From: a virus | DNA: 24,474 nucleotides | Direction: 5' to 3' (one strand) | Virus record (IMG/VR): IMGVR_UViG_3300045806_000094 | Location: 1-24,474 of that record | In this document: piece after piece, positions 5,242 to 24,474 of the stretch | How the letters are laid out: every line of letters starts with the position of its first letter | How positions within the stretch are numbered: position 1 is the first letter of the stretch | The notes under the pieces: generated by a model | Told to the model about the DNA's origin: nothing | Database searches by the model: none | The model's input: only the letters and a program-made list of their open reading frames with translations | Translations under genes and position numbers: made by a program

Positions 5242-6984
5242 ATGGCCGATGATCCACGCATAGTTGCATACGACGAGCGCGCTCCTCTCAACGAGAGGAC
5301 AGACGCGCGAGCGCAGCTGGAGGCGGCATACCGCCCTCTGGCCTCACAGCTGATACCGTCTGACGAGGTCCAGCGCGTCATAAATTACGTGCAAGATCAA
5401 TATGCCGAAGCCGATATGCTGAAAGCGCGCGGCGGCGGTATCGTGATGCCCAATCGCAGCGCCACCGGCGGCATGCGGTCTGTCACGCTGGACGGCAACT
5501 CAATCTCTCTCGCCGGCGGCTATTTCGAACGCCCGGCGGCGATGGGCTTTGATGCGCTGCGCTCGATGGTCGAGCAAACGCCGATTTTGTCGAGCATCGT
5601 CCTCACGCGCGTGCGCCAAGTGAGCCGATTCACGCAAATCTCCGAGGATGGCGGCCTTGGGTTCGAAATTCGCCACGCCGAGCGCAAGCACGAGATGACG
5701 CTGCCGGAGGAAGGGTCTGCGGCACTTTTGGCCAAGTTCTTTGCCAATTGCGGTTGGGAGTTCAACCCGCGCGCGCGGCGCAAGCTCAAGCGGGACAACT
5801 TCACGAAATTCATGGCGAAGCTCACGCGCGACTCTCTCACGATGGATGCGGCACCCATTGAGACCGAGATGAAGCGCAACGCCAATCTCGGGATCGACGG
5901 CATTTATGCGCTGGACGGCGCGACAATCCGCCTCTGCACCGAGATGGGATATGACGGCGATGACAGCATCATTGCTGTGCAGGTGGTGCAAGGCCAAATC
6001 CGCACGACTTACACGGCCGATCAGATCGTCTATGAGGTGCGCAATCCACGCTCCGATGTGAACGTCGGCGGCTATGGGATGGGCGAGACCGAACTGCTGA
6101 TCCGGGTTGTGACCGGCATCCTCAATGCCATGACTTACAATATCAACGGGTTCGATAAGAACGCGATTCCGAAGGGCCTGCTGAATATCTCGGGCGACTA
6201 TTCGACGGAAGATCTGACCGCGTTCAAGCGCCAGTGGAATGCGATGGTCAAGGGCATCAACAACGCCTGGTCGCTGCCGGTTTTGGTTTCCAAGGATGGC
6301 GAAGGCAAGGCCAGCTTTGAGAATTTTGGTGTCGAATTCAACGAGATGTATTTCGCCAAATGGATGACGTTTCTCACGTCGATCTGCTGCGCGATCTACG
6401 GCATGTCGCCGGAGGAGATCAACTCCGAGAGTTTCAGCGCGCAAAAATCCAGCCTGTCAGGTTCGGACACAAGCGAAAAACTGGCGGACTCCAAGGACAA
6501 GGGCTTGCGTCCTCTCATGGGCTATTTTGAGAGCACGCTGACCGATTACGTGGTTTCCGCATTCGGCGAGAAATACTGTTTCCGCTGGGTCGGCCTGGAT
6601 GAAAAAGACCAGGAACAGGCGTGGGAAGGCAAGAAGCTGATTCTCACGGTCGACGAGCTGCGCGCGGAACAGGGCTACAAGCCGATCAAGGGCACGCTTG
6701 GCGATGTGCCGCTCAACCCGTCACTGATCGGGCCGTGGCAGCAAGCCCAGCAAGCCGAGCAAAACCCGCAAGGTCAGCAATTCGGCGGGGCTCCTCCTGC
6801 CGAGCAAGGCGACTACGGCGAGGAAGATCCGAACGATCAGGACCAGCCCGGCGCCGATCATCAAGACCAGCAGCCCGACCAGCCCGATACCGGCGCAAAC
6901 GATGGTGCTGACCAGCCCGTCGGCGGCGCACCGCAAGGCGATTTCGGCAAGGCGCTGAGCGTCATCTATTCGATTGGGGGCTGA
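5242..6984 (+). CDS. Phage portal protein
   Basis: The gene encodes 580 residues. The portal forms the dodecameric ring at one capsid vertex through which DNA is packaged and ejected. The body (residues about 95-500) shows a typical portal order: a helical start with SIVLTRVRQVS, a beta-rich wing, GYGMGETELL, the stem and crown region with FNEMYFAKWMTFLTSICCAIYGMSPEEIN, and ESTLTDYVVSAFGEKYCFRWVGLD. The C-terminal 80 residues are a Gln/Asp/Pro/Gly-rich low-complexity tail ending in DFGKALSVIYSIGG. The start ATG has no visible Shine-Dalgarno and follows motif copy 3. The polyvalent gene begins one base after the stop. The usual neighbour, a large terminase subunit, is not in the window. Confidence 0.88.
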   Translation: MADDPRIVAYDERAPLNERTDARAQLEAAYRPLASQLIPSDEVQRVINYVQDQYAEADMLKARGGGIVMPNRSATGGMRSVTLDGNSISLAGGYFERPAAMGFDALRSMVEQTPILSSIVLTRVRQVSRFTQISEDGGLGFEIRHAERKHEMTLPEEGSAALLAKFFANCGWEFNPRARRKLKRDNFTKFMAKLTRDSLTMDAAPIETEMKRNANLGIDGIYALDGATIRLCTEMGYDGDDSIIAVQVVQGQIRTTYTADQIVYEVRNPRSDVNVGGYGMGETELLIRVVTGILNAMTYNINGFDKNAIPKGLLNISGDYSTEDLTAFKRQWNAMVKGINNAWSLPVLVSKDGEGKASFENFGVEFNEMYFAKWMTFLTSICCAIYGMSPEEINSESFSAQKSSLSGSDTSEKLADSKDKGLRPLMGYFESTLTDYVVSAFGEKYCFRWVGLDEKDQEQAWEGKKLILTVDELRAEQGYKPIKGTLGDVPLNPSLIGPWQQAQQAEQNPQGQQFGGAPPAEQGDYGEEDPNDQDQPGADHQDQQPDQPDTGANDGADQPVGGAPQGDFGKALSVIYSIGG

Positions 6985-6985
6985 T

Positions 6986-9900
6986 ATGGCCGCAAAGCAG
7001 CCTGTGAGCGTCGAGCGCGGCGATCACGTCTATGTCGCTCATCCCAAGCGCGGGGTGATCGCAGGGCGCGTCCTGGCGCATGGCAAGGACGGCATGACGC
7101 TGAAATGCGATCAGGGCCAAAAGCACAAGGTCGATTACCAGCACTACCTTGGCCACAAGGCGCGCGTCTCGCCGGCGGTCGATGTGATTGATCAGGGTGT
7201 GGACGGCGCGATCGTGCGCGATGCGTTCGGCCGCCGGAAATTTGTGGCGGGCCTGCAATCCGAGCCGCCCGCCCAGCCCGCCCCGGCCCCGGCCAAGAAA
7301 GATGATCCGCTGCTTGATGCGGCACCGATGGAGAAAGCGATGTCCACCCAGCCCGTAATCCTGTTCCTCAAGGCTGGCACGGTGGCCAATCGCCCCGGCC
7401 TGCAGCTGAAAGACGTCACTGACAAGGCCGGGCACCAGACCAAACGCTGGACCAAAACGACCAAGGATCAGCCCAAGGGCGATGAGCCGGGCGCGGCCGA
7501 CAAGCCGACGATGCACCACGGGCAGACGGTCGCGTTCCGCCACGGTGATGTGCAGGGCACCGGGAAGGTGGTGGCCAGCGGCGCGGATGGTGTGACGGTG
7601 CAGGATGAGACCGGACGCGAGCATCAAGTGCGCCACCAGCATTTGATCGGGCCGCATGATCCGGCTGCACCCGGCGGCGAGGGCCAGCCCGCAACACCAG
7701 CGGCACCAGATGCCGCGGCCAAGCCGCAGGATGCTAAACCTGGGCAGAAAGGCGGCGGTGATGGCGGCGGCAATGATGGTTCTGTGCCACCAGACTCGTT
7801 TAATGCGAAGGCTTATAGCAAGGATTATATTGACCTAAGCGTGACGCCTGCAGACATTCTCAAAGCATTCCCGCCAGATACCGCAACCAAGATGGATGCG
7901 ATCACTAAGAAGTTGGCTGCGACGCCGCAAACCATTGAGACATACAAGAAGGATGGCAAATACACGCCTGAGCGCTTGGAGCTGCACAAGAAGATTGTCG
8001 CACATATTTTGTCGCCAGATCGGCGCAAAGCGGCAAAGCCGCCAGCTGGCACTGACCCGACCTTCACCATTCTTGGCGGGCGCGGCGGATCGGGTAAATC
8101 TTGGTTCGCCGGTAAGGTTTATGATCCGACTACGGCTATCGTTTTAGATGCTGATGAAATCAAGCAAATGCTGCCCGAATACGAGGGGTGGAATGCTGCG
8201 ACTGTGCATGAAGAATCCGGCGATTTATTCGATCAAATCACTGCGGAAGCGCAAGGTTTGGGTCTTAATATCGTTCATGACGCAACCATGAAAGCGGGCC
8301 ATAAGGCCGTAAAGCTGGTCAAGGGCTTCAAGGATGCCGGGTATCGGACGGAGGCACATTATATGTTTCTGCCGCCTGCTGAGGCCGCTACGCGCGCTGT
8401 GCATCGTTTCCTTGGGCCAACTCAGCGTTTTGTCCCGCCGGGCATCGTGTTATCGAATACCACCAATGAACCCAGCTTTGATGATGTCAAGGCGCTTGTA
8501 GATAATTGGTCTTTCAGAGACAATAATGTGGCAAGGGGCGAACAGCCCAAGCTGATATCAGAAAGTCAAGGCAATGAAACTGACAGAGGAAAATCAGGAC
8601 TACATGGATTGCCGTCCGCTGGGTCGCGAGACGGGGATAGATCTGGGTCCGGAGATGGAAGCGGAATTCGCAGAGATGAAAAAAGCGGAGGCGGCTCGAA
8701 GGGCAGCACGCTTGGCAAGTCGCTCGCGGACGGCGGCCGAGTAACACTACTCCTCAAAGCTGCCGCTCCAACGGCAAAGCAGATCGAGGCCGGAAACTAC
8801 CCCAAGGCGCACCGCTCATTTCAGGGCCTGCCGGTAACGATTGAAAACCCGGCGGGCTCAGTGCGCTCTGGCGTATCCAGGGGTGGCCATCGCTGGTCCA
8901 CCATGATGAAGCACGACTACGGCTACATCAAAGGCACGCTGGGGTCTGATGGCGATCACTACGATTGCTATGTCGGCCCGCATGAGGATGCGACGCACGC
9001 CTATATCGTCGACACAATGAAGCCGCCGCACTTCGCCGAACTAGACGAGCAGAAGGCCATGCTCGGCTTTGCCAGCGAGCAGCACGCGAAAGAAGGCTAT
9101 CTGGCCCATTACGACAATCCGGGCTTCCTCGGCAAAATCACGCCGATGCACATGGATGAGTTCAAGGCCAAGGTTCGCCAAACGCGCGAGCCGGGCCATA
9201 CCGGCATTCTCAAGGCGCTCGGCAACAAGGTGGCCATGTTCTTCAAGGCCATCATTCCCGGCGGGGCTCAGGCTGATCTGTTCGCAATCCCGGTGCCGGT
9301 GAAGGCGCACACCACGAAAGACGGCACGGCCGTGGCCGCGCATACTGCGATCCGGCACAAGAAGGCCCCGGCGCCAATGTCAGCCGAGATGATCGACTCA
9401 ATCGCCAAAGCGGCGGAAGACCATCACGCCGCACGCCGCAAGAGCATGCGCAACCCGCCATTCGTGAGCATTGCGGCGGCATTAGGCGGCTACGCGCATT
9501 CGGTCGGCCTCAAAATCCATGACGATCATGAATTGCCGATCATCAATCGCATGATGGAGCTGCGCAAGATGGCCAGCGCCACGCTTGCGCCGCACACGCC
9601 GCAACCCGGCGGTGATCCGCGCAATGTGTATCCAGCCGATGAGCTGGTGCCAGCCGAGCATGGCTTGCCGGAGGGATCGACTTTCAAGGAGGGCAGGGGG
9701 CAGCTTGGCGCTGGGAAATGGTCTGTCGTGTTTCCCGGTGAGCGATTCAGCACCAACTACATGCCATCTAAAGCAAAGGCGATTGCAGAGGCGCACGGCA
9801 TTGTGAAAAGCCGCGCCGCTCAGGCTGAACGCAAAGCCGATCAGGATGCCAAAGACCGCGATCTTGTGGTTCGCCTGCTCAATGGTGGCATGGCCGATGA

Positions 9901-11362
9901 GCAAGACGTGAAGCGCCTTGGCCTTCGACCGGGCAAGGCGGCACGCTTCGGCGAGATGACTGGCATTGCTGAACGCCTGTTCGGAATCAGTTCGCGCAAG
10001 GCGCGTGAGGCTTTCGGCGATGCCATGTCTGTGGGCTATAGCGATGGGGGCACCAAGATTGACTATGTGAGCCCGCGTAAGGGGCTGGCCAATGCTGCGC
10101 GCTGGGCGGCGAAGAATGCCACCCTGCCGCGCGAGGTATTGGACAAGGTGGAAAGCGCATTCGGCGTGAAAATCAGCGACGATGGCAAAACGGTCAAGCT
10201 GAGCGCATCGGAGCAATTGCAGGCCCTCGAAAAGCAAATGAAAGACCTAGAGGCTGAGGCACCCAACGGCCGTGATTTTGTGGGTGATGAGCCTGGGTTT
10301 AAAGCGGCATTTGCTGGGTATCGTGCCAAACAGAATGCTATTCGCTGCGAGATGGAAAAGCTGACCGCTGCGGCTGTAGCTGAGCGCAAGGCTAAGCGCG
10401 CGGGTGCGCTGACCGAGGCTGATGCCACCAAGCGCGCTGAGGATACTCCATCGCCAGACATGAAGCACTTCTACGTCTCGGCCATTGATGGTGCGAAGCG
10501 CCACCTCGTCGCCGGGCCATATGCCTCACAGCAAGAGGCTGCCGATCACGTCGAGCACGTCCGCAAGCATGCCGACAAGCAGGATGGCCGCGCGCACTTC
10601 ATGGCCTGGGGCACGGCTGGCAGCACTGAGCCGATGAAAACCCCGCTCGGCGCAAACTGGAAGCCTGCGGATTGGCGTGATGAGGATAACTGGCACGCTC
10701 GCACGCAAGCGCGGATGAAGACCCTGCCAGAAGAATCGCTGCGCTATATTGTCAAGGATGCGAGCGATGCCTCACGCGCGCTGGATAGCGTTTCCTCGGC
10801 CAAAGCTGGCCAGTATGCCGATGAAGCCTCGTATGCCCAAATGGAGCTGAATGCCCGCGCAAAGGCTAAGGTTACGGCTGGCGACGATGAACATTCGGCT
10901 GCAGCGCGCAAGCTCTATCAGGATTATGCGGCGCTTGATCAGGGCAATACGAAAGAGCGCGCCAAGATCCTGCAGCGTGTTCGCACCCTTGCAGCCAAAA
11001 CACCGGCCGATCATAAAGCAGTCATGACTCTCGATGTCGTGGCAACACGCGCGGGCACGATGAAACCTCTGCAATTTGCTCCGGCATCTGATGCACCCGC
11101 CAAGGCTGAGCCGCGCATCATGCTGCCGGTGGCCAAGCCCAAGCTGACCGAAGGCTTCATCGCCAAGGTTTATCATGGCGACGATGTGCATACGACCGAG
11201 ATCCACGAAACTCGCGAGGCCGCCGCCGCTGCTGCCCTGGCGGCAATGCCCAAGGCCAAAACTGCTAGCACCTCAGTCGCGCGCAATGGACGAGACACAT
11301 ACGGTAATCTCCAGTCCCACAAACGCCCCTACAACCCGGCGGATGATGAGGATGACGAATAA
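6986..11362 (+). CDS. Giant polyvalent protein: SH3-like repeats, zeta kinase, pyrophosphatase-like domain
   Basis: The gene encodes 1458 residues; GGGGG stands just before the ATG. Domains in order: two related SH3/KOW-like repeats (about 12-58 and 179-223); a Gly/Pro linker; a zeta-toxin-type P-loop kinase (about 268-530) with Walker A GGRGGSGKS at 364-372 and LDADE at 387-391; a Ser/Gly/Asp-rich stretch; a pyrophosphatase-like domain as described in polyvalent proteins (about 595-745, SDGDHYDCYVG at 654-664); the shared K-A-I-I-P-G-G module (749-795); and several unnamed alpha/beta domains, including one starting FYVSAIDGAKRH near 1161. Polyvalent proteins beside portal and MuF genes are thought to enter the cell with phage DNA. 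The zeta part is clearly lower in GC than its flanks. Residues 119 (an in-frame ATG) and about 586 start L-F-L-K-A-like segments that may mark old gene boundaries. Confidence 0.85.
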   Translation: MAAKQPVSVERGDHVYVAHPKRGVIAGRVLAHGKDGMTLKCDQGQKHKVDYQHYLGHKARVSPAVDVIDQGVDGAIVRDAFGRRKFVAGLQSEPPAQPAPAPAKKDDPLLDAAPMEKAMSTQPVILFLKAGTVANRPGLQLKDVTDKAGHQTKRWTKTTKDQPKGDEPGAADKPTMHHGQTVAFRHGDVQGTGKVVASGADGVTVQDETGREHQVRHQHLIGPHDPAAPGGEGQPATPAAPDAAAKPQDAKPGQKGGGDGGGNDGSVPPDSFNAKAYSKDYIDLSVTPADILKAFPPDTATKMDAITKKLAATPQTIETYKKDGKYTPERLELHKKIVAHILSPDRRKAAKPPAGTDPTFTILGGRGGSGKSWFAGKVYDPTTAIVLDADEIKQMLPEYEGWNAATVHEESGDLFDQITAEAQGLGLNIVHDATMKAGHKAVKLVKGFKDAGYRTEAHYMFLPPAEAATRAVHRFLGPTQRFVPPGIVLSNTTNEPSFDDVKALVDNWSFRDNNVARGEQPKLISESQGNETDRGKSGLHGLPSAGSRDGDRSGSGDGSGIRRDEKSGGGSKGSTLGKSLADGGRVTLLLKAAAPTAKQIEAGNYPKAHRSFQGLPVTIENPAGSVRSGVSRGGHRWSTMMKHDYGYIKGTLGSDGDHYDCYVGPHEDATHAYIVDTMKPPHFAELDEQKAMLGFASEQHAKEGYLAHYDNPGFLGKITPMHMDEFKAKVRQTREPGHTGILKALGNKVAMFFKAIIPGGAQADLFAIPVPVKAHTTKDGTAVAAHTAIRHKKAPAPMSAEMIDSIAKAAEDHHAARRKSMRNPPFVSIAAALGGYAHSVGLKIHDDHELPIINRMMELRKMASATLAPHTPQPGGDPRNVYPADELVPAEHGLPEGSTFKEGRGQLGAGKWSVVFPGERFSTNYMPSKAKAIAEAHGIVKSRAAQAERKADQDAKDRDLVVRLLNGGMADEQDVKRLGLRPGKAARFGEMTGIAERLFGISSRKAREAFGDAMSVGYSDGGTKIDYVSPRKGLANAARWAAKNATLPREVLDKVESAFGVKISDDGKTVKLSASEQLQALEKQMKDLEAEAPNGRDFVGDEPGFKAAFAGYRAKQNAIRCEMEKLTAAAVAERKAKRAGALTEADATKRAEDTPSPDMKHFYVSAIDGAKRHLVAGPYASQQEAADHVEHVRKHADKQDGRAHFMAWGTAGSTEPMKTPLGANWKPADWRDEDNWHARTQARMKTLPEESLRYIVKDASDASRALDSVSSAKAGQYADEASYAQMELNARAKAKVTAGDDEHSAAARKLYQDYAALDQGNTKERAKILQRVRTLAAKTPADHKAVMTLDVVATRAGTMKPLQFAPASDAPAKAEPRIMLPVAKPKLTEGFIAKVYHGDDVHTTEIHETREAAAAAALAAMPKAKTASTSVARNGRDTYGNLQSHKRPYNPADDEDDE
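7790..8745 (+). other. Low-GC zeta-toxin insert within the polyvalent gene
   Basis: Three hand-counted 60-base lines in this stretch (7801, 8101, 8221) have 42-43% GC, against 73% at 7261 and 57% at 9121. The segment begins after a Gly-rich linker, contains the whole zeta-type kinase and ends where the main frame returns to an L-L-L-K-A segment. The borders are approximate. The simplest reading is a zeta gene acquired by transfer and fused in frame. Confidence 0.6.
8574..8744 (+). CDS. Possible 56-residue overlapping gene downstream of the zeta kinase
   Basis: In a different + frame from the host gene, ATG 8574 to TAA 8742-8744 encodes a protein with normal composition: MKLTEENQDYMDCRPLG, then GPEMEAEFAEMKKAEAA, then a basic helix. 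The main frame over the same bases gives Ser/Gly/Asp/Arg-rich low-complexity sequence, which is what an out-of-frame reading tends to look like. It could be a small partner gene once following a separate zeta gene, now a relic or still expressed. A purine-rich AGAAAG lies eight bases before the ATG, a weak ribosome binding site. Confidence 0.35.
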   Translation: MKLTEENQDYMDCRPLGRETGIDLGPEMEAEFAEMKKAEAARRAARLASRSRTAAE

Positions 11363-11808: not shown

Positions 11809-13182
11809 ATGAAGCCGCTCATTCTTTTCCTCAAGGCGATCATCCCCGGCGGGGCATCTGGTGACCTGTTTTCGGTCACGGTGCCTGTCCATGGCTACAC
11901 CACCAAAGGGGGCACTTATGTGGCCCCGCACGTTGCTGAGCGCCTAAAACGGCCCGACAATCCAGTTGCACCCGCACCAAAACCATTGCAGGATACACCC
12001 ATCGGACGGCATCAGGCCGCCGAAATTGGCAAGAGGCCAGAAGCAATGCTCCAAATCACACCTGCCAAATCAGGCAAAGGCACCTACCTCAAAATCCCGG
12101 ATGACGCTGCGGACCTAACGGCTGCATTCAAGGCGGAATTTCCGACCGCTGATTATTTCAGCGATACCAAAAAATGGTATCTGCGCGGCAGCACGGCCGA
12201 AAAACGCCTTCGCAAATGGGCTGAGACTCAATCGGAAGCATTGGCGGGAGTTGCGGCGCGCGAGGCTGAAAAGCAGTCCGCGGCCAAAGCCGCACAAGCT
12301 GAGGCTCAGAATGCCAAGCAGGCAGCCGCTGATGCCGATGCAGCGCTCGGTCAACTCACAAACGAGCATGTCAACGTGACATCTGCTGGGTCGCAATTAT
12401 CGGTGCGGTTCCCGTATGCGGTTGGTGCAGTCTCCATCATCAAGGCGGTGCCGGGAGCGCGATGGGATAATGCCTCCAAGTCATGGCTGGTGCCGCCGAT
12501 TGAGCGTCCAGCCCTTCGTGTGGCAATCGCTCGCATCAATGCCGCCTTAAAGCCGATCTTGGCGGCAGAGAAGGCCGAGGAAGATAAAAAAGAAGCAGAC
12601 CGGCAGGCGATTCGCGCACGGCGCTGGCCGATGCTGCTGAGTGATGGCCTGCGCATCGGACAAGTTATGCGCCTGCATGGCAAGGTCCAGGCGATCGAAA
12701 GCGTCGGCAAACGGTTCTACGTCAACGAGGACATGCCGAGCCTCTACGGCCACCTCCTGGGGAGTGAGGGCGAAGCAGTGGCCTATGCCTATATGCGCGA
12801 TGCGACCGAGGCTGAGCAGGCTGCATTTGAAGCGGATGAGCAGGCCAAAGCAGCACAGGCTGATGCTCGACGTGCTGCTGCTGCTGCGATACGTTCGGTG
12901 AAAGAAGAATTCAACGCCGCCTCTGTTCGCCCAGCCAAGCTGGATGAAGCACCGAAGGGTGAAACGGTTTTGGAGGAAAACCCGCGCTCGGCAATCTATG
13001 GCGGTGGCGTGCGGTGGGTCTATGGTGATGGCGTGCTATGGCAGTTGCGCGGCAATAGCGCTGATGGCGATGATTGGAGCGCTAACAATTTGTCTGGCAC
13101 GATTGCAACATGCGTGTTCGAGCCGCTTGCCGGTGAACTGGCTGAGCGTCTGCGCGCTGCCATGAAACAGGGCGCGATGTAA
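11809..13182 (+). CDS. Protein with shared N-terminal module and HARP/DUF5710-like repeats
   Basis: The gene encodes 457 residues. Residues 5-47 are the shared module (LILFLKAIIPGGA, DLF, TTKGGTYVAPH). Residues about 88-140 (YLKIPDDAADLTAAFKAEF, then KKWYL) and 195-245 (LSVRFPYAVGAVSIIKAVPG, ARWD, KSWLVPP) both resemble the small strand-helix-W units of HARP or DUF5710 domains, which bind DNA in annealing helicases, primases and phage proteins. They are separated by an Ala/Glu/Lys-rich coiled coil (141-182). Residues 270-335 form another beta-rich domain, followed by a second coiled coil (335-370) and a Trp-rich C-terminal domain. There is no helicase motor, so a DNA-binding or DNA-protecting role is inferred. 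It lies between two unknown small genes in the head region. Confidence 0.72.
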   Translation: MKPLILFLKAIIPGGASGDLFSVTVPVHGYTTKGGTYVAPHVAERLKRPDNPVAPAPKPLQDTPIGRHQAAEIGKRPEAMLQITPAKSGKGTYLKIPDDAADLTAAFKAEFPTADYFSDTKKWYLRGSTAEKRLRKWAETQSEALAGVAAREAEKQSAAKAAQAEAQNAKQAAADADAALGQLTNEHVNVTSAGSQLSVRFPYAVGAVSIIKAVPGARWDNASKSWLVPPIERPALRVAIARINAALKPILAAEKAEEDKKEADRQAIRARRWPMLLSDGLRIGQVMRLHGKVQAIESVGKRFYVNEDMPSLYGHLLGSEGEAVAYAYMRDATEAEQAAFEADEQAKAAQADARRAAAAAIRSVKEEFNAASVRPAKLDEAPKGETVLEENPRSAIYGGGVRWVYGDGVLWQLRGNSADGDDWSANNLSGTIATCVFEPLAGELAERLRAAMKQGAM

Positions 13183-13869: not shown

Positions 13870-16137
13870 ATGACGCTCCTGATCGACATCGGCCCGGTTC
13901 CCGAGGCGCATTGCAACGACTGCCTTGAAGATCTGTTCAAGGCCTTGGCGGTTGACCCGCTGGCCGATGAGGCGACAATCTGGGATCACCACCAGAATCC
14001 CTACCTCACGGCTCTGGTCGAGGAGATGACGCTGCGCTTTCAATCCATCCTTCAAGCGATGCAGGGCGCGATGAGCCGCTGGCTATTCGGCGATACCGTC
14101 GAGCATGCTCTGGAAAAGGCGCTTGGTGATGAGCCTGTCAGCCCCGAGGAATGGCTGCGCTGGACCCCGGAGGAAAAAGCCGCCGTTGAGGCGCGGCTGG
14201 CCAGTTTGCAAGAGGGCGAAATCAGCCTGGATGACTGGCTGCTCGGCTCTGAACTGCTGGTCCAGACATACCTGCCCGATAACGTGATCAAGACGCAGGC
14301 CGATTATATGACGGTCAAAGCGGCGCTGCTTGGCAAGATCCAGGCAACGCTTGCTGAGCAATCAGCCGAGGCGATCGCAAAGGCGACGTCCAATCTCCCG
14401 CCCAAGGTTGAGGAAGTGCCGGCCAAGGTGCTGACCCCTGTTGAGCGCAAGACCATCGAATTCGCGCAAGCACGCGCTGCTACCCGCATCCGCGGCGTGG
14501 CGGATGTCGCGCGCGCGCGCATGAAATCCATCATCATCGACAAGGTCGAGGCGCAAGTGATGGGCGACCCGCGCGGCAACGCGCAGCAGCTGCGCCAGGA
14601 ACTGTTCGACAATTTCGGGCAGCTCAATCGCGACTTTCGCCGCATCGCCATCACCGAGGCGGGCGAGGCTTGCAATCAGGGCTTTGTGGCTGCCATGCCG
14701 GAAGGTGACCGCGTCGAGCGGCGTGAGGCGTATCGCGGTGCCTGCGAATTCTGCAAGTCGATCAATGGCAAGTCGTTTCTCGTCGTAGCGGCATCTGATC
14801 CAAATCGCGATGGCCAGACGCAGGTATGGCCCGGCAAGACCAACGAGGGCCGGTCTGCATCACCACGCAAGCGGGTGGGCAAAGTCTTGATGGAGCGTGG
14901 CCTATCCGAGCGCTGGTGGCCAGCCGCCGGCGTGCAGCACCCGCATTGCTTCATTGACGGCAATCTACCTGTCTATACGTCTTCTGGTTGGAAACCAATT
15001 TCGACGATTGCCCTTGGTGATTTGGTTTTGACGCACCTGGGGCGGTTTATGCCTGTGACGTGGGTTCTGGCTGACACATTCCACACTGGGCAAGTCTTTG
15101 GTGCAGTGACAAAATTCGAGGGACGCAATAAGGCGCGGTTGCCAGCATCAACGGGCGAACACCCTATCCGAACGGAACGCGGCTGGGTGCCATCAAGTGA
15201 ACTGGTATCTGGGGATCGCTTGATTGCCCTCGCAAAAATATGTCCGACCTGCACGCATCCATTCGTCAATTTGAAATTTCCGAATGTGCGCTATTGCAGC
15301 CTTGGGTGTGTGGAAAGGGCTGGCATCAATCAATTTTCAACGGATGATCCTGCGGCCTTGGCTGCCGCCAAGGCAATCACTGGGGAGGCAAATACAAGGC
15401 GTCTACGCGGGATGACAGTTGAGCAGCGTGCCGCTCTTACTGCACCAGCACGGGCCATCATGCGCGAACGCGGCTATGCGCACCTGCTTGATCCCGCTAG
15501 TCGCCGACGCGGCGCGAAAACATTGGGCGCGAACAATTACCAGCCGAGTGAAACTGAAATTCAAATCGCTGAGGCGTTGGTTGGTATGGGTTGTCAGCCG
15601 CTTTTGCAGCACCGCGTTGAGCAAATTCGTGAGAACCGATTGGGCAAAAAACGCCATTGGTGGCTTGATCTTGCCATTCCAGATCAGCGGATCGCAATTG
15701 AGATTGACGGGGAGCCGTGGCATGGGCGCATGGCCAATGGGCGAGATGATGTGCGTGATGCCGATTTGCAGGAGCAGGGCTGGACGGTATTGCGATTTGA
15801 CGCCAAGCGCGCTGCATCTGATCCCTATGCCATTGCGGCTGAGATAGCGCGCATCGCCATGAACCATGATGGAGCCTATGTTTTCGGCTCTGTCGAGGTA
15901 GTTGAACCAACATCAAGGTGGGTGAAAAACCGCCGACTCTATAATTTTGCCGTCGATGAAGATGAAAGCTATGTCGTTGGTGGCGGCTATGTGGTTCATA
16001 ATTGTCGCGGATCTTGGACCCGACTCAGCGCAAAGCCGCCGGAAGTCAGCCAAGAGTTTGAGGATTTCCTGCACCGCACATTCGCTGAAATGTATCCGTT
16101 GCTGGCCACCAAGCCTGCGGAGCGCACCCCGGAATAG
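13870..16137 (+). CDS. Mu gpF-like head morphogenesis protein interrupted by an intein
   Basis: The precursor has 755 residues; the mature protein would have 403 after splicing. The N-terminal 200 residues are helical. The MuF-type domain follows: FRRIAITEAGEACNQGF, then REAYRGACEFCKSINGKSF, then HPH-[intein]-CRGSW, where the H-P-x-C-R motif is the conserved end of the domain. MuF proteins act in head assembly, bound near the portal inside the procapsid. The intein is inserted inside this most conserved motif (Cys360 to Asn711), and Cys712 is the first residue after it. The C-terminus is short and charged. The gene starts ten bases after motif copy 4 and its stop is directly followed by copy 5. 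Confidence 0.85.
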   Translation: MTLLIDIGPVPEAHCNDCLEDLFKALAVDPLADEATIWDHHQNPYLTALVEEMTLRFQSILQAMQGAMSRWLFGDTVEHALEKALGDEPVSPEEWLRWTPEEKAAVEARLASLQEGEISLDDWLLGSELLVQTYLPDNVIKTQADYMTVKAALLGKIQATLAEQSAEAIAKATSNLPPKVEEVPAKVLTPVERKTIEFAQARAATRIRGVADVARARMKSIIIDKVEAQVMGDPRGNAQQLRQELFDNFGQLNRDFRRIAITEAGEACNQGFVAAMPEGDRVERREAYRGACEFCKSINGKSFLVVAASDPNRDGQTQVWPGKTNEGRSASPRKRVGKVLMERGLSERWWPAAGVQHPHCFIDGNLPVYTSSGWKPISTIALGDLVLTHLGRFMPVTWVLADTFHTGQVFGAVTKFEGRNKARLPASTGEHPIRTERGWVPSSELVSGDRLIALAKICPTCTHPFVNLKFPNVRYCSLGCVERAGINQFSTDDPAALAAAKAITGEANTRRLRGMTVEQRAALTAPARAIMRERGYAHLLDPASRRRGAKTLGANNYQPSETEIQIAEALVGMGCQPLLQHRVEQIRENRLGKKRHWWLDLAIPDQRIAIEIDGEPWHGRMANGRDDVRDADLQEQGWTVLRFDAKRAASDPYAIAAEIARIAMNHDGAYVFGSVEVVEPTSRWVKNRRLYNFAVDEDESYVVGGGYVVHNCRGSWTRLSAKPPEVSQEFEDFLHRTFAEMYPLLATKPAERTPE
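14947..16002 (+). mobile_element. Intein with Vsr/DUF559-like endonuclease (352 residues)
   Basis: The intein runs from Cys360 to Asn711 of the precursor. Block A is CFIDGNLPVYTSSGWKPIS. Block B is STGEHPIRT, with the T-x-x-H signature. Block F/G is LYNFAVDEDESYVV followed by VVHN and then Cys. All residues needed for class 1 splicing are present. Between the splicing halves are a Cys4 zinc-finger-like segment (CPTC, then YCSLGC), an Arg-rich helix and a nuclease-like domain: SETEIQIAEALVGMG, then WWLDLAIPD, IAIEIDGEPWH, and DLQEQGWTVLRF. This resembles the PD-(D/E)xK fold of Vsr/DUF559 proteins, not the usual LAGLIDADG enzyme. Local GC is lower (45% in line 14941, 48% in line 15241), fitting recent mobility. 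Confidence 0.85.
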
Positions 16138-18941: not shown

Positions 18942-19871
18942 ATGACGAGCACTGTCGTATTTCTCACCACTACCGGGACCGGCTTATCGTGGGTAGTCCC
19001 TTCGGGTGTTACGTCGATTAAAGGCGAGGCTATCGGTCCCGGCGGCAACACGAACGCCAATGGCGGCGGCGGCGGCGGCGGCGGCGCATATGCGGTTAAC
19101 CCATCAATCGCTGTCACACCCGGCCAGTCGATCTCATACAATATCGGTGGAGGCGGCTCCGGTATTGACACGATGTTTTTTAACACGTCCACGCTAGTGG
19201 CAAAAGCGGGCGGTGCGGCTGACGCATCAGGCAATGGCGGCGCGGGCGGCTCAGCGTCGTCGTGCGTGCCATCAACAGGCGCATTCTCAGGTGGTGCGGG
19301 GGGCAACTCTCTACAGGGCGGTGGCGGTGGCGGTGGGTCCGCTGGTCCTAACGGAGTAGGACAAAACGGTGGATCGACCCCAGCCCCGCTAGGAAACTCT
19401 GCGGGTGCGGGTGGTGGTGGGTCCAACGGGGGCAGTTCGACGGCAGGCGCGGGCGTCGCATCTGGCGGCGGAAATGGTGGTAACGGCGGCAACGGCAACG
19501 CCGGTTCGGGTGGGGGTGCTGGCTCGCTTAACAACACTACCTTTCCAGGCAGTGACGCGACGGCAAATTCTGGCGGCGGGGGTGGTGGGGGTAATATTGG
19601 TAGGACGAGCCAAACCGCAGGGGGTAGCGGTGCCGGTTCTATCGCTTGGACCTCAACGCTGGGAGCAACTGCCGGTCCAGGCGGTGGTGGTGGCGGCGGT
19701 GGCGGATTTACGGGTTCTGCTGCGGGCGGCAACGGGGGTGCCTATGGAGGTGGCGGTGGCGGCTCACTGCTATCTCTTAGCACCCCCGGCCAAGGGCTGA
19801 TCGTCATTACCTACACGCCCCTCGTTGTCAGCGGGCCGACGAACCCTTCAAACTTCCTAATGGGTTGGTGA
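18942..19871 (+). CDS. Polyglycine-rich receptor-binding-type protein
   Basis: The gene encodes 309 residues. The first 30 residues (VVFLTTTGTGLSWVVPSGVT, SIKGEAIGPGG) match the short beta domain that starts many glycine-rich phage proteins. About residues 35-280 are runs of Gly with Asn, Ser and Ala, including eight Gly in a row (43-50) and nine near the end. The C-terminus returns to normal sequence (GQGLIVITYTPL). In the T4-like phage S16 adhesin gp38, such Gly runs form a packed polyglycine-II sandwich that carries variable host-binding loops; a similar fold is inferred here. The long Pro-rich minus-strand frame over it is a shadow of these Gly codons. Confidence 0.75.
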   Translation: MTSTVVFLTTTGTGLSWVVPSGVTSIKGEAIGPGGNTNANGGGGGGGGAYAVNPSIAVTPGQSISYNIGGGGSGIDTMFFNTSTLVAKAGGAADASGNGGAGGSASSCVPSTGAFSGGAGGNSLQGGGGGGGSAGPNGVGQNGGSTPAPLGNSAGAGGGGSNGGSSTAGAGVASGGGNGGNGGNGNAGSGGGAGSLNNTTFPGSDATANSGGGGGGGNIGRTSQTAGGSGAGSIAWTSTLGATAGPGGGGGGGGGFTGSAAGGNGGAYGGGGGGSLLSLSTPGQGLIVITYTPLVVSGPTNPSNFLMGW

Positions 19872-20277: not shown

Positions 20278-23200
20278 TTGTTGCTGTTTTTGAAGGCTAA
20301 GATTGCGGGCGGCGCGCGCGCTGATCTGTTCTCAACCACCGTTCATGTCGACGGCTATACGACGAAAGAGGGCACCTATGTGGCCCCGCATGAGTCGATC
20401 CGGCACAAAGCCCCAACCAAGGCAAAAGCCCCGCCGGCGCAAATCTCCCTGTTTGACAATCCGCTGCCCGATGAGCATGCGGCCAAGGTTGAGTTCCACG
20501 CGCAGGAGCCCGAAACCACCGGGCCGCTCATGGCCGATCTGCCCGACGATGCGGCGCTGATCGAGAGCGGCGGCAAGTGGCTGGTCGAGATAGGCGAGCA
20601 GCGCACCGAACGCTTCGCCACCCAGCGCGAGGCGGTGGAAGCGGCGCGGGCAATGGTCGCGGCAAAGCCAGAACCTGATGCGCCACCCATGCCAGAGCCA
20701 CCGAAACAACAGCCCGGCGTGACAGTATCGCCTGAATTGGAAGCGTTTTTGCCCGGTATTACCGAGGCTGCGCGCCAATTGGCCAACACGCTTATGCCCA
20801 AACACTTGGTCAATTTGATTTTGGCGGCAGACCAGACGCAGCCCAAGGGGCGGATTGAGTCACCTCATACGCCGCTCGAATACGGGATGACGGCCCCGGT
20901 CGAGCCCAAAGGGAAGGGCGAGGATTTCGTCATCCAAATCAACAAGCTCGATGTCTATGGCAAAGAGCGCTCGCGCGCGAGCTGCTGGGACACGGTGTTG
21001 CATGAGTTCGGCCATGCTTTTCAGATGGCACAATTCCAGGCGGCAGATCGCGAGACAAAGGCAGCGATCGTCAGTCAGTGGGAGCGCAGCGTCAAATCCA
21101 ATCAGGAACATGAAGACAATCTAATTCAGGTCAAGAAGTGGATCATCGACGGCGAGCCGATGAAACACATTGAGGACAAGGCCGCCCGTGAGCACAGCCT
21201 AAAGCGCAATGGGCGCTATTTTGCCCAATTCGAAGAATGGTTCGCTGAGCGCTTTTCGAATTGGATGGCCACACGCGAGCAGGATTCTTCGCCGATCGGC
21301 ACGTTCTTTGGACAGTCCATGCTGGTGATGCGCTCGGCCATTTCCAAGGCCGCCAAACTGCTCGGGCTGAACATCAAGCGAGGCGAGTTTGAGCGCTTCG
21401 CTGATGCGGCCTGGGAGGCCGGAACGCCGCCAGCACCCATCATGGATTGGGGCGTCTCGGCTGGCGTCACCAAGGGCGAGCGGCGCCGGATCAACGCCGA
21501 GTGCGTCGACATCCTCACGCGCAAAACCGACGATCAGATCACTGATGCTGACCGCGCCACGCTCGCGCGCTATTCGGGCAACGGCGGGTGCGGTGACTCG
21601 CTCAACGAATTCTACACCGATCCGGCCGTAGCGCGGTCCATGTGGGATATGCTGGCCTCGGCGGGTTTCGCGGGCGGCGCGGTGCTAGAGCCCAGCTGCG
21701 GCACGGGCGTATTTCTCCATACTGCGCCAGCCAATGCGCGTGTCACCGGTGTTGAGTTGGATGGCGTGTCGTCACGCATCGCCCGCCTGCTGCACCCGAC
21801 GCATGAGGCGCAAGATGCCAGCCTGGAGCGGTTTGCAACCACGGATGGCCGGAAATTCGCGGCCGTCATCGGCAACGTGCCGTTCGGCCTGCGTGGCGAT
21901 CTGATCAAGGACGACAAGCCAGACCTTGCCACGGCTGAGCGGTATTTCGTCGATACCAGCTTGGACAAGCTGGAGGATGGCGGCTTGCTGGCATTGATCG
22001 TGCCGACTGGCATCATGGACTCATCCTCCGGCCGCGCGTTTCGTGAGCGGATCTTGCGCAAGGGGGAATTCCTCGGCGCGATGCGTCTGCCCAACACCGC
22101 GTTTGAGGCATCGCACACTGAGGTGACTTCTGACGTGATCCTGATGCGCAAGCGCCCGGCGGATATCGCTGGCGCGCTGCGCACGGTCTCGCAAGAGCAG
22201 CTGCAGGCGCTGGGCGTTTGGGAGCCTGATTTCCTGTCGGGTGGCTACTTCACCGATGGCACCAACGCGGGTTCGGTGCTCGGGACGCTTGAACCAGGCT
22301 GGCGGGCCAAGGCTGGTATGGGCGCGGATATCACCGTCACGGGCAGCATGCATGGCGTGCCGGCGGCGCTGGCGGCGTGGCGGCCTGAACCGTCCAAAGG
22401 TTCGCCCGACATGCAGCAAATCCTCGCCAGTTTTGGAGATGATGAGGAAGGCAAAAAGCGCGCGCTGAATGCCGCCATCAAGCCCGCCTATCAGCTGGCC
22501 AAGGTGGGCGATGTCAAAGTGGTCGACGGCGTGCGCTACATTTTGCAGGGCGACCCGCCGCGCTGGCACCGCACTGAGGAAGCCACCAGCGCCGCCGTGC
22601 TGGATGCATGGCCGCTGGCTGAGATGATCAATGATCTGCATGAGGGGAGCACGAAAGACCCGGCTTATACCCGCGCGCAGCTGATCGAAGGCCTGGATGA
22701 GTGGGTCCGTAACCACGGCTCTCCGGTATCCAATCGCGATTTGATCGCCTGGATTTCGGCGCCGGTTCAGATTGACGATAATCCCCTGCCTGTCGGTATC
22801 GCGCAAAAGATGGCGCGCATGCTCGGCGCGGTCTCGTCTGATGGCAGTTATTCGGATTTGGTAACTGGGCGGGCGCATGATGGAGCTGAGGCTTCCATTG
22901 ATACGACGGCCATCAAACTCGCGCTGGAAAACGGCAGCTTCTCGCCCGATGAGCTGGCTGGCCAGATGGGGCTTGATCGCGAATCTGTGCTTGACCACCT
23001 GATGGCCGCGCCGGGCTATGCGGTGCTGCCTGATGGCAAGCGTTGGACAACGCTGGATGATTATCTGTCGGGCGAGCTCTGGCCAAAGCTGGATGAGGCC
23101 CGCGCTGCGCTGTCAGATGAGGCGCTGTCTGCGGAAATTCGGACCAAGCTCGAAACGCAGGCTGCCGAACTTGAAAAGACCATTGCGCCGCAATCGCTGG

Positions 23201-24474
23201 ATGACGTCGAGGTGCTGGTCAACAGCGGCTTTGTGGCGCCTGAAATTCTCGCGGCATATTTCAACGATCGCGAGGCCAACAGCGATTATCGTGGCTACAA
23301 GCCGGATGGGAAAATCGCCGTCACCTATGCGCATGGTCTGTATTCCGTCCATCGCGTGGCAGCCAACGGCAATCGTGGCTCAGTCTATGGCGAGGCCGAC
23401 CTGCTCGAGCGCGTGCTGAACCGCGATAACGTCAAGAAAGATGAAAAGCTCGACGTCGCCGAACTGAACCAATCTTTCCGCGATTGGCTGGTCAGCAGCC
23501 CTTATCGTGATGAGGTGGAAACCCGCTACAACCGGCTTTATCGCGGGTTCCGGCCCAAAGCGCAGAGTGATGCGCCTATCGAAATCCCTGGTCTCAACCC
23601 GGCCCTTGATGTCAACGCCTATCACTTCGCCGGGCTGCGCTGGGCGATGGCCGCTGGCAAGGGCATCATTGCGGCTGACGTCGGCCTCGGGAAGACCGGC
23701 CGTGCGCTGATGTTGGCGAAGCTGGCCAAGGCCACCGGCCAAGCCAAGAAGCCCACCATCGTTGTGCCCAAGAGCGTCCTGGCGAACTGGGCGGCTGAGG
23801 CTGAATTCTGGTTTCCCGGCTCGCGTGTGTTGATAATCGGCGAGACGGTCAGCACCAACAAAGCCGGCGAGCTCGTCTCCAAGAGCGACAATGAGGATAC
23901 GCGCCGGGCGAAGTATCACCAGCTGCAGCAGAACGACTATGATTTCGTGCTGATCTCGCAACCGGCCTGGAATGAGCTCGACGTCAATCCTGCCACCAAA
24001 GAGGCCTATATCAACGATGATTTCTGGACCAAGCGCGGCGAGGCGATGGGAAAGAAAAACGAGAAAGCTCAGAACAAAATTCGCACTGCCTATGATCAGG
24101 CGATGGCCAAGCGTGAGTTTTTGGGTGGGGAAGAGACGATCTACTTCGAAGACCTCGGCATTGACATGCTGATTATGGATGAGGGGCACGCCTACAAAAA
24201 CCTGTTTTCCGTGCGCAAGCGCTTTGGTGAAAGCCCGAAATTCCTTGGCGGCTCAGGTGAGTCGAAACGGGCTCAGGACACGTATTTCAAGAGCCGGGCA
24301 TTGCGTGAGGCCAATGGCGACAAGGGCATCTATATGCTCACTGCCACCCCAACCAAGAACAGCCCGCTTGAGGTTTATTCGATGCTCGCGCACATCGCGC
24401 CAGAGACATTCGAACGAATGGGCATCAAGAACAGCGAAGATTTTCTCGACCGATTCTGCGACTTCAAAACCGAT
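20278..24474 (+). CDS. DarB-like giant protein: zincin, N6-adenine methylase, SNF2 helicase (partial)
   Basis: The frame is open for 1399 residues and leaves the window. The start is TTG 20278, seven bases after GGAG; a TAA at 20260 blocks an earlier start. Residues 1-46 are the shared module (LLLFLKAKIAGGA, DLF, TTKEGTYVAPH). A zincin protease-like domain follows, with HEFGH at 242-246. An N6-adenine DNA methylase comes next: motif I VLEPSCGTG at 469-477 and GNVPFG (NPPY-type motif IV) at 532-537. The SNF2 helicase has motif I DVGLGKT at 1134-1140, Ia IVVPKSVLANW, II DEGH at 1301-1304 and III TATP at 1355-1358. P1 DarB has the methylase/helicase combination, enters with the DNA and protects it from type I restriction. 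A zincin in front hints at cleavage of host or phage proteins after injection (inference). Confidence 0.88.
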   Translation, partial: MLLFLKAKIAGGARADLFSTTVHVDGYTTKEGTYVAPHESIRHKAPTKAKAPPAQISLFDNPLPDEHAAKVEFHAQEPETTGPLMADLPDDAALIESGGKWLVEIGEQRTERFATQREAVEAARAMVAAKPEPDAPPMPEPPKQQPGVTVSPELEAFLPGITEAARQLANTLMPKHLVNLILAADQTQPKGRIESPHTPLEYGMTAPVEPKGKGEDFVIQINKLDVYGKERSRASCWDTVLHEFGHAFQMAQFQAADRETKAAIVSQWERSVKSNQEHEDNLIQVKKWIIDGEPMKHIEDKAAREHSLKRNGRYFAQFEEWFAERFSNWMATREQDSSPIGTFFGQSMLVMRSAISKAAKLLGLNIKRGEFERFADAAWEAGTPPAPIMDWGVSAGVTKGERRRINAECVDILTRKTDDQITDADRATLARYSGNGGCGDSLNEFYTDPAVARSMWDMLASAGFAGGAVLEPSCGTGVFLHTAPANARVTGVELDGVSSRIARLLHPTHEAQDASLERFATTDGRKFAAVIGNVPFGLRGDLIKDDKPDLATAERYFVDTSLDKLEDGGLLALIVPTGIMDSSSGRAFRERILRKGEFLGAMRLPNTAFEASHTEVTSDVILMRKRPADIAGALRTVSQEQLQALGVWEPDFLSGGYFTDGTNAGSVLGTLEPGWRAKAGMGADITVTGSMHGVPAALAAWRPEPSKGSPDMQQILASFGDDEEGKKRALNAAIKPAYQLAKVGDVKVVDGVRYILQGDPPRWHRTEEATSAAVLDAWPLAEMINDLHEGSTKDPAYTRAQLIEGLDEWVRNHGSPVSNRDLIAWISAPVQIDDNPLPVGIAQKMARMLGAVSSDGSYSDLVTGRAHDGAEASIDTTAIKLALENGSFSPDELAGQMGLDRESVLDHLMAAPGYAVLPDGKRWTTLDDYLSGELWPKLDEARAALSDEALSAEIRTKLETQAAELEKTIAPQSLDDVEVLVNSGFVAPEILAAYFNDREANSDYRGYKPDGKIAVTYAHGLYSVHRVAANGNRGSVYGEADLLERVLNRDNVKKDEKLDVAELNQSFRDWLVSSPYRDEVETRYNRLYRGFRPKAQSDAPIEIPGLNPALDVNAYHFAGLRWAMAAGKGIIAADVGLGKTGRALMLAKLAKATGQAKKPTIVVPKSVLANWAAEAEFWFPGSRVLIIGETVSTNKAGELVSKSDNEDTRRAKYHQLQQNDYDFVLISQPAWNELDVNPATKEAYINDDFWTKRGEAMGKKNEKAQNKIRTAYDQAMAKREFLGGEETIYFEDLGIDMLIMDEGHAYKNLFSVRKRFGESPKFLGGSGESKRAQDTYFKSRALREANGDKGIYMLTATPTKNSPLEVYSMLAHIAPETFERMGIKNSEDFLDRFCDFKTD

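Follow-up and report, generated by a model that had tools for sequence, protein, structure and literature searches.

The giant gene and its junction peptides

The DNA analysed here is an IMG/VR virus contig of 24,474 bases (IMGVR_UViG_3300045806_000094, referred to below as the window), and our subject is a giant gene on its plus strand (6986–11362), which lies directly 3' of the portal gene and encodes a polyvalent protein of 1458 amino acids whose domains are separated by short, recurrent peptides. Residue numbers are counted from the ATG at 6986; a TTG at 6974 would overlap the portal gene. The protein contains a first SH3-like domain (about residues 8–93; 7007–7264) and a second one (residues 179–227; 7520–7666), both recognized through homologues and weak Pfam matches (E 0.045 and 0.057 for the two repeats), followed by a zeta-toxin kinase domain (residues 351–488; 8036–8449; PF06414, E 2.4e-20) and an inorganic pyrophosphatase (InPase) domain, which forms a folded core in the structural model (residues 598–730; 8777–9175; PF18823, E 3.9e-42). 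With zeta toxin and InPase in one protein and the portal gene adjoining, the giant has the make-up of a polyvalent protein. A Pfam search of the giant (E 0.1) returned no peptidase match.

Three junction peptides were found at the domain borders: MEK↓AMSTQPVILFLK↓A at junction 1 (residues 115–130, MEKAMSTQPVILFLKA; 7328–7375), LGK↓SLADGGRVTLLLK↓A at junction 2 (residues 576–592, LGKSLADGGRVTLLLKA; 8711–8761) and ILK↓ALGNKVAMFFK↓A at junction 3 (residues 741–755, ILKALGNKVAMFFKA; 9206–9250), with arrows marking predicted cuts. Each consists of two [hydrophobic]-x-Lys-[Ala/Ser] motifs (K117/K129, K578/K591 and K743/K754), which are spaced by 12, 13 and 11 residues, respectively, and enclose a hydrophobic stretch. 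Related peptides occur elsewhere on the plus strand of the window. The portal ends with DFGKALSVIYSIGG followed by the stop codon, that is DFGK↓ALSVIYSIGG (6940–6984), with a predicted site after K570. A gene for a 457-aa protein (11809–13182) starts with the tag MKPLILFLK↓A (11809–11838), and a methylase-helicase gene (20278–24474), which has TTG start codons in tandem and runs off the contig, starts with LLLFLKA (20278–20298). An earlier first-pass annotation of this sequence had quoted these peptides and placed the three marks between recognizable domains, and both statements were confirmed, including its wording of the portal tail and of the two tagged gene starts.

To describe the peptides we used a strict tag pattern, i.e. 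four hydrophobic positions followed by K[AS], and a loose site pattern, [LMFIVW]xK[AS]. Strict tags occur three times in the giant as compared to 0.084 expected (p 0.0004, 5000 shuffles), and loose sites occur 10 times as compared to 4.7 expected (p 0.023, shuffles), six of them being accounted for by the three pairs. Across 17 records, 11 tag pairs were counted versus 0.45 in shuffled sequences. Three of the 11 lie in the window, one is located in a scaffold protein and two overlap within one protein.

Junction 3 opens a module of ~45 residues (MFFKAIIPGGA..DLF..VPV...TTKDGT; 9236–9373), which recurs at two gene starts, namely 11809 (59% identity) and 20281 (57%). Part of the likeness at this junction therefore reflects domain homology and not the short peptide alone. 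In many cargo genes, a GYTRKDGTxVxPH-like stretch directly follows the tag, constituting a small recurrent module (9236–9373, 11809–11952, 20278–20412 and many relatives). At junction 1 (7328–7375), an in-frame ATG accompanied by GGAG is present ten codons before K129, and the relative L005 has GAGG at the same place; this could be a relic or an active internal start.

Separate genes start at the junctions in related phages

Comparison with related phages, which had been suggested to learn whether separate genes start at the marks, revealed such genes at all three junctions. For junction 1, relative L036 encodes the first SH3 domain as a gene of its own, and the next gene starts with MTKIVFFKS and contains the second SH3 domain. 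Tagged genes with the second SH3 domain also follow the portal gene in L042 (MTPLFIKA), L053 (MTTPIFIKA), L070 (MSTAVFFKA) and L076 (MTTPIFIKA). Where both SH3 domains reside in one protein, K[AS] is found between them in all 22 listed cases, several of which are near-identical, and the strict tag in 20 of these, while the linkers vary. For junction 2, InPase is a stand-alone gene in Bordetella phage PHB04 (start VGAVVLLKAD) and begins genes in G002, G004 and G014, the latter being tagged; in further cases it is joined to different partners. For junction 3, the module stands at the start of two L005 genes and, in the window, of those at 11809 and 20278. The domain between junctions 1 and 2 is exchanged: zeta toxin occupies this slot in the window, and a RelA/SpoT-like domain does so in PHB04; L006 resembles the former and L005 the latter.

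The window portal shares 53–63% identity with the portals of relatives, and a site is present within the last 30 residues in 11 of 11 distinct portals that retain both search peptides. In G009, the portal reads through LAKSGDALGESLLKAN into an SH3 domain, which makes the portal tail one of the same set of borders. The G009 gene (70449–72896, minus strand) encodes an 815-aa protein in which the portal is joined to the SH3 domain found in other phages at the start of the next gene, and the same fusion was seen in L037, L039, L040 and L041.

Since relatives carry tagged separate genes at every junction, the giant is most readily understood as the product of fusion between tagged cargo genes, in line with the serial gene fusion that the first-pass annotation had offered as one of two alternatives. 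Judged from the tagged gene starts rather than from a tree, fusion appears to be the simpler reading as compared to fission.

Sites flank the InPase domain on both sides

The borders of the InPase domain were inspected across the clade. On the C-terminal side, a site lies within a segment of 26 residues in 17 of 18 clade proteins, two of which (G008 and L026) are nearly identical in the region downstream of the domain, as compared to 1 of 10 InPase proteins from outside phages and 7.1% of random segments. On the N-terminal side, a site is present in 15 of 17 clade proteins (one truncated protein, G005, was left out) versus 3 of 10 controls. Genes ending at the C-terminal border stop 7 to 14 residues past the Lys, and most of them finish in a hydrophobic tail; longer chains lead on to another domain, usually with a second site in between. 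In a structural model of this stretch of the giant (mean pLDDT 69), K578, K591, K743 and K754 lie in segments with values <50, outside the folded core.

The single positive outside control, which was retained in the count, is Leptospira phage LE1 (L219, 8710–11829). This phage has a phrog_752 capsid protein, and its InPase protein carries KSVIIKSSIKNLFLKS after the domain. The genes just before its capsid gene also carry sites (277-aa protein, 5 versus 1.14 expected; 243-aa protein, 4 versus 1.13). Regarding LE1 as a relative is a post hoc step, but the system may reach far beyond the clade.

The head maturation protease and its predicted cleavage site

Protease and scaffold genes were studied in the relatives. 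In PHB04, the gene at 19624–20517 matches the head maturation protease family phrog_1028 (E 4e-70); it adjoins the genes for scaffold and capsid protein, the latter of family phrog_752. A homologue of the protease is present in 22 of 28 relatives' records. The motif was first noticed in PHB04, where among 66 genes those for a scaffold-like protein (7 versus 0.81 expected) and the protease (5 versus 0.88) stand out for [LMFIVW]xK[AS]. PHB04 was consequently excluded from the count, which is based on stretches of 20 relatives that yielded 16 records once near-duplicates were dropped. Applied to PHB04, the gene-calling script recovered the stop of each of the 35 annotated genes and matched 33 of these genes exactly. 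In the 16 records, scaffold proteins contain 111 sites as compared to 13.8 expected (p < 0.05 in 16/16) and proteases 79 as compared to 13.3 (p < 0.05 in 15/16), and a site in the N-terminal arm of the capsid protein is present in every record. Scaffold and protease both rank among the top three genes by site enrichment in 13 of the 14 records in which both genes were called, the exception being G004, whose protease ranks fifth.

The 232 K[AS] steps in protease and scaffold proteins of 15 records reveal the sequence preferences around the putative cut. Two residues before the Lys, Leu is enriched 4.9-fold, Met 7.8-fold and Phe 3.1-fold; Lys-Ser and Lys-Ala exceed composition 2.9-fold and 1.9-fold, respectively, and Leu is enriched 4.4-fold at the second residue past the cut. 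Within a given genome, the C-terminal part of the protease (residues about 200–231) resembles the capsid N-arm where it surrounds the site; these matches are weak, secondary ones (E 1e-6 to 7e-4), and the protease looks as if it carries a copy of its main substrate. An AlphaFold model of the clade protease was poor (pLDDT 52), and comparison of its sequence profile with solved structures gave nothing useful.

A structural anchor for the site is provided by the capsid protein. Searching solved structures with the clade capsid protein retrieved gp6.1 (9vel), 5lii_P (463 aa) and 9row_B (439 aa). Chain 9row_B corresponds to 5lii_P minus 24 residues and starts with Ser25, directly after Lys24, which aligns with the N-arm site of the clade. 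The SPO1 protease is a remote homologue of the clade protease (E 8e-6), and sites in SPO1 are found in the scaffold (11 versus 1.05), in the protease (5 versus 1.09) and in the capsid protein (ALNK↓ALEAG at 23). Cleavage after Lys is known from HK97, whose capsid protein is cut after Lys103. Taken together, the sequence comparisons argue strongly that Lys-[Ala/Ser] is the cleavage site of the head maturation protease of the clade.

It is also conceivable that the junctions are relics only, i.e. fossil N-termini of genes that became fused to their upstream neighbours and have no present function. Genes of relatives indeed start at each junction, and junction 1 retains its ATG together with GGAG in the window or GAGG in L005, ten codons before the Lys. 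However, relics account for the second half of each junction only, whereas the first K[AS] behind the preceding domain persists both in genes that end at this border and in those that run on, as seen at 17 of 18 C-terminal InPase borders. Moreover, K[AS] between the SH3 domains persists in 22 of 22 proteins, 20 of them with a strict tag, despite differing linkers, and the richness of scaffold and protease in sites would be left unexplained. We thus regard relics without function as unlikely.

Tags cluster at gene starts

Strict tags occur 56 times in the 1386 genes of the 16 records, and 23 of these are located within the first 21 residues, as compared to 4.5 if evenly spread. Other endings following the same hydrophobic run cluster less strongly at gene starts: 1 versus 1.5 expected for K[GTVLI], 6 versus 7.4 for [EDQNT][AS], 4 versus 2.3 for K[EDNQKR] and 3 versus 1.1 for R[AS]. 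Pfam analysis of ten tagged proteins gave matches for five, namely LPD3 plus helicase, zeta toxin, WGR plus ADP-ribosyltransferase, and NUDIX twice. In Yersinia phage fHe-Yen8-01, two genes starting with MLVLAKALN and MLKAQIKGY carry the note 'particle associated' in the GenBank record, and one of the two products is an ADP-ribosyltransferase. A literature search found no paper on virion proteomics of fHe-Yen8-01, and a term search of the Mecenats66 paper showed no mass spectrometry.

N-terminal clustering and hydrophobic character would also suit a binding peptide, and a similar strand is present on portal tails. The peptides might accordingly be docking strands for coat, scaffold or portal that are retained in the particle, with Lys-Ala/Ser serving as an uncut docking surface. 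Against this stand the Lys-[Ala/Ser] step that scaffold, protease and capsid arm have in common and the solved capsid homologue that begins right after the Lys at the capsid arm, making docking without cleavage rather improbable. A further possibility is that internal translation starts at the junctions yield shorter proteins in the same frame, as suggested by the ATG with a Shine-Dalgarno-like sequence at junction 1 (window and L005) and an ATG with AAGG at junction 3. However, junction 2 has no usable start in the window, junction 1 of L006 has no Shine-Dalgarno-like sequence and the C-terminal sites would be left unexplained; with only junction 1 being convincing, this very improbable explanation was not adopted. 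Finally, chance, composition or mere shared domain homology can hardly be credited: the proteins are rich in Ala and Lys, loose sites in the giant number 10 versus 4.7 and junction 3 belongs to a homologous 45-aa module, but strict tags (3 versus 0.084) and pairs (11 versus 0.45) exceed chance, and tags precede domains as unrelated as zeta toxin, ADP-ribosyltransferase, NUDIX and LPD3-helicase.

Discussion

In the reading that we consider likely, each junction of the giant combines a hydrophobic tag for capsid targeting with a prohead-protease site at either end, and the chain is divided into individual effectors within the prohead. According to this model, the tag would be a removable capsid-loading device, i.e. 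a short hydrophobic stretch bounded by sites of the head maturation protease, whose cut would fall behind the Lys of [L/M/F]-x-Lys↓[Ala/Ser]. Unfused cargo genes would carry one tag, usually N-terminal (tag-LFLK↓A-domain) but sometimes C-terminal (domain-MIK↓A-hydrophobic tail), the portal being an example of the latter. Head-to-tail fusion of such genes would place a tag between domains with a site on either side, generating the arrangement K[AS]-hydrophobic-LK[AS]. The tags might then draw the polyvalent chain into the prohead along with scaffold and protease, and cuts at the pairs during head maturation, after cargo loading, would turn the chain into individual products for injection: the SH3 parts, the zeta-toxin kinase, the pyrophosphatase and the C-terminal part. 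The first-pass annotation had posed relic gene starts and cleavage by a phage protease as an either/or, but the evidence favours fusion and cleavage together. Its cleavage alternative gains from the identification of K[AS] as the probable site of the clade protease, while for the giant itself we infer cutting, tag-driven encapsidation and injection from the sequences.

Several observations speak against this model. Protease, scaffold and capsid genes were not found in the window, as the contig stops short of the head-protease region, so that the protease is deduced from relatives, and no cleavage product of the giant or of any cargo protein has been seen. In the 16 records, genes other than those for protease, scaffold and capsid protein also contain more sites than expected (880 versus 712), which we ascribe to chance matches of this short motif in Ala/Lys-rich proteins; likewise, the remaining four of the 10 loose sites in the giant appear incidental. 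Records and proteins share descent, so the counts are not independent trials. Among the relatives, some InPase borders have no clear tag (in L021, InPase is a gene of its own but untagged), the G004 gene at 63442 starts with VLFFAKT and not with K[AS], and the tail site is missing from some portals of more distant relatives (L026, L035). The fHe-Yen8-01 record gives the note of particle association to many of its proteins, some of them enzymes, so that the note supports the packaging of tagged proteins only weakly.

The nature of the predicted site has a practical consequence. Trypsin cuts after Lys and, therefore, tryptic virion proteomics cannot tell these cuts apart; the search for virion peptides ending at the marks, which the first-pass annotation had recommended, would mislead if trypsin were used. 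The tag in turn offers a sequence rule for finding virion-packaged effectors in many phages: at the N-terminus, a short run of hydrophobic residues closes with LK[A/S], and a GYTRKDGT-like stretch often comes next. It also suggests a processing route for polyvalent proteins that have no peptidase of their own. Should the tag prove sufficient for packaging, proteins could be loaded into phage heads by means of a short, cleavable handle. Beyond the giant, we lean slightly towards the view that phages of this head-protease lineage, including distant ones such as those with SPO1-like heads and Leptospira phage LE1, may use a polyprotein strategy for injected effectors, in which tags load the chain and Lys↓Ala/Ser cuts set several weapons free. 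The tag could act as a portable and exchangeable module with which cargo genes can be fused, split or swapped while packaging and release are kept.

Apart from the tagged proteins, the minor head protein gene of the window (13870–16137) contains an intein-like insert, with a Hint domain from about residue 360 and a DUF559/Vsr-like nuclease (residues 580–661) in place of the usual homing endonuclease. The homologues in PHB04, L005 and L006 are uninterrupted across QHPHCRG.

A literature search, in which few subscription papers were covered, found no Lys↓Ala/Ser tags on cargo and no processing of polyvalent proteins by head proteases. Cleaved targeting peptides on T4 head cargo, propeptides removed by head proteases and polyvalent proteins as such are already known. 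In T4, the capsid targeting sequence is removed by the gp21 prohead protease at a Glu site. This sequence is described as a short N-terminal peptide on internal head proteins (PMC9024508). The tags discussed here resemble it in being short N-terminal peptides on proteins, with head cargo annotated for two of these only, but they carry Lys↓Ala/Ser instead of a Glu site, are strongly hydrophobic and also occur internally in fused chains, where sites bracket each copy. In P1, the N-terminal 30 residues of DarB are enough to load a reporter into the head, according to the same source (PMC9024508). We considered and rejected P1 as a member of the present system; its capsid protein gp23 is cut at MLE↓SVAAEM, leaving P1 as a functional analogue only.

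In SPN3US and phiKZ (gp245), many head and ejection proteins have propeptides that are cut by one head protease, with several sites per propeptide; these have another site motif and are mostly N-terminal, and internal processing of multi-effector fusions is not among the features described in the available part of that text (PMC10052503). Polyvalent proteins were introduced as multi-effector phage proteins encoded near virion genes, InPase included, for which processing is expected and, in the sections available, is attributed to zincin metallopeptidase domains built into some members, not all (Iyer et al. 2017, PMC5512222). Unlike these, the giant has no Pfam peptidase match, and its sites point to the head protease. 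A further likeness is to SPO1-type heads (gp3.2 protease, scaffold and gp6.1) and to the 5lii/9row capsid protein, which have the same Lys-[Ala/Ser] site, the protease being homologous in SPO1.
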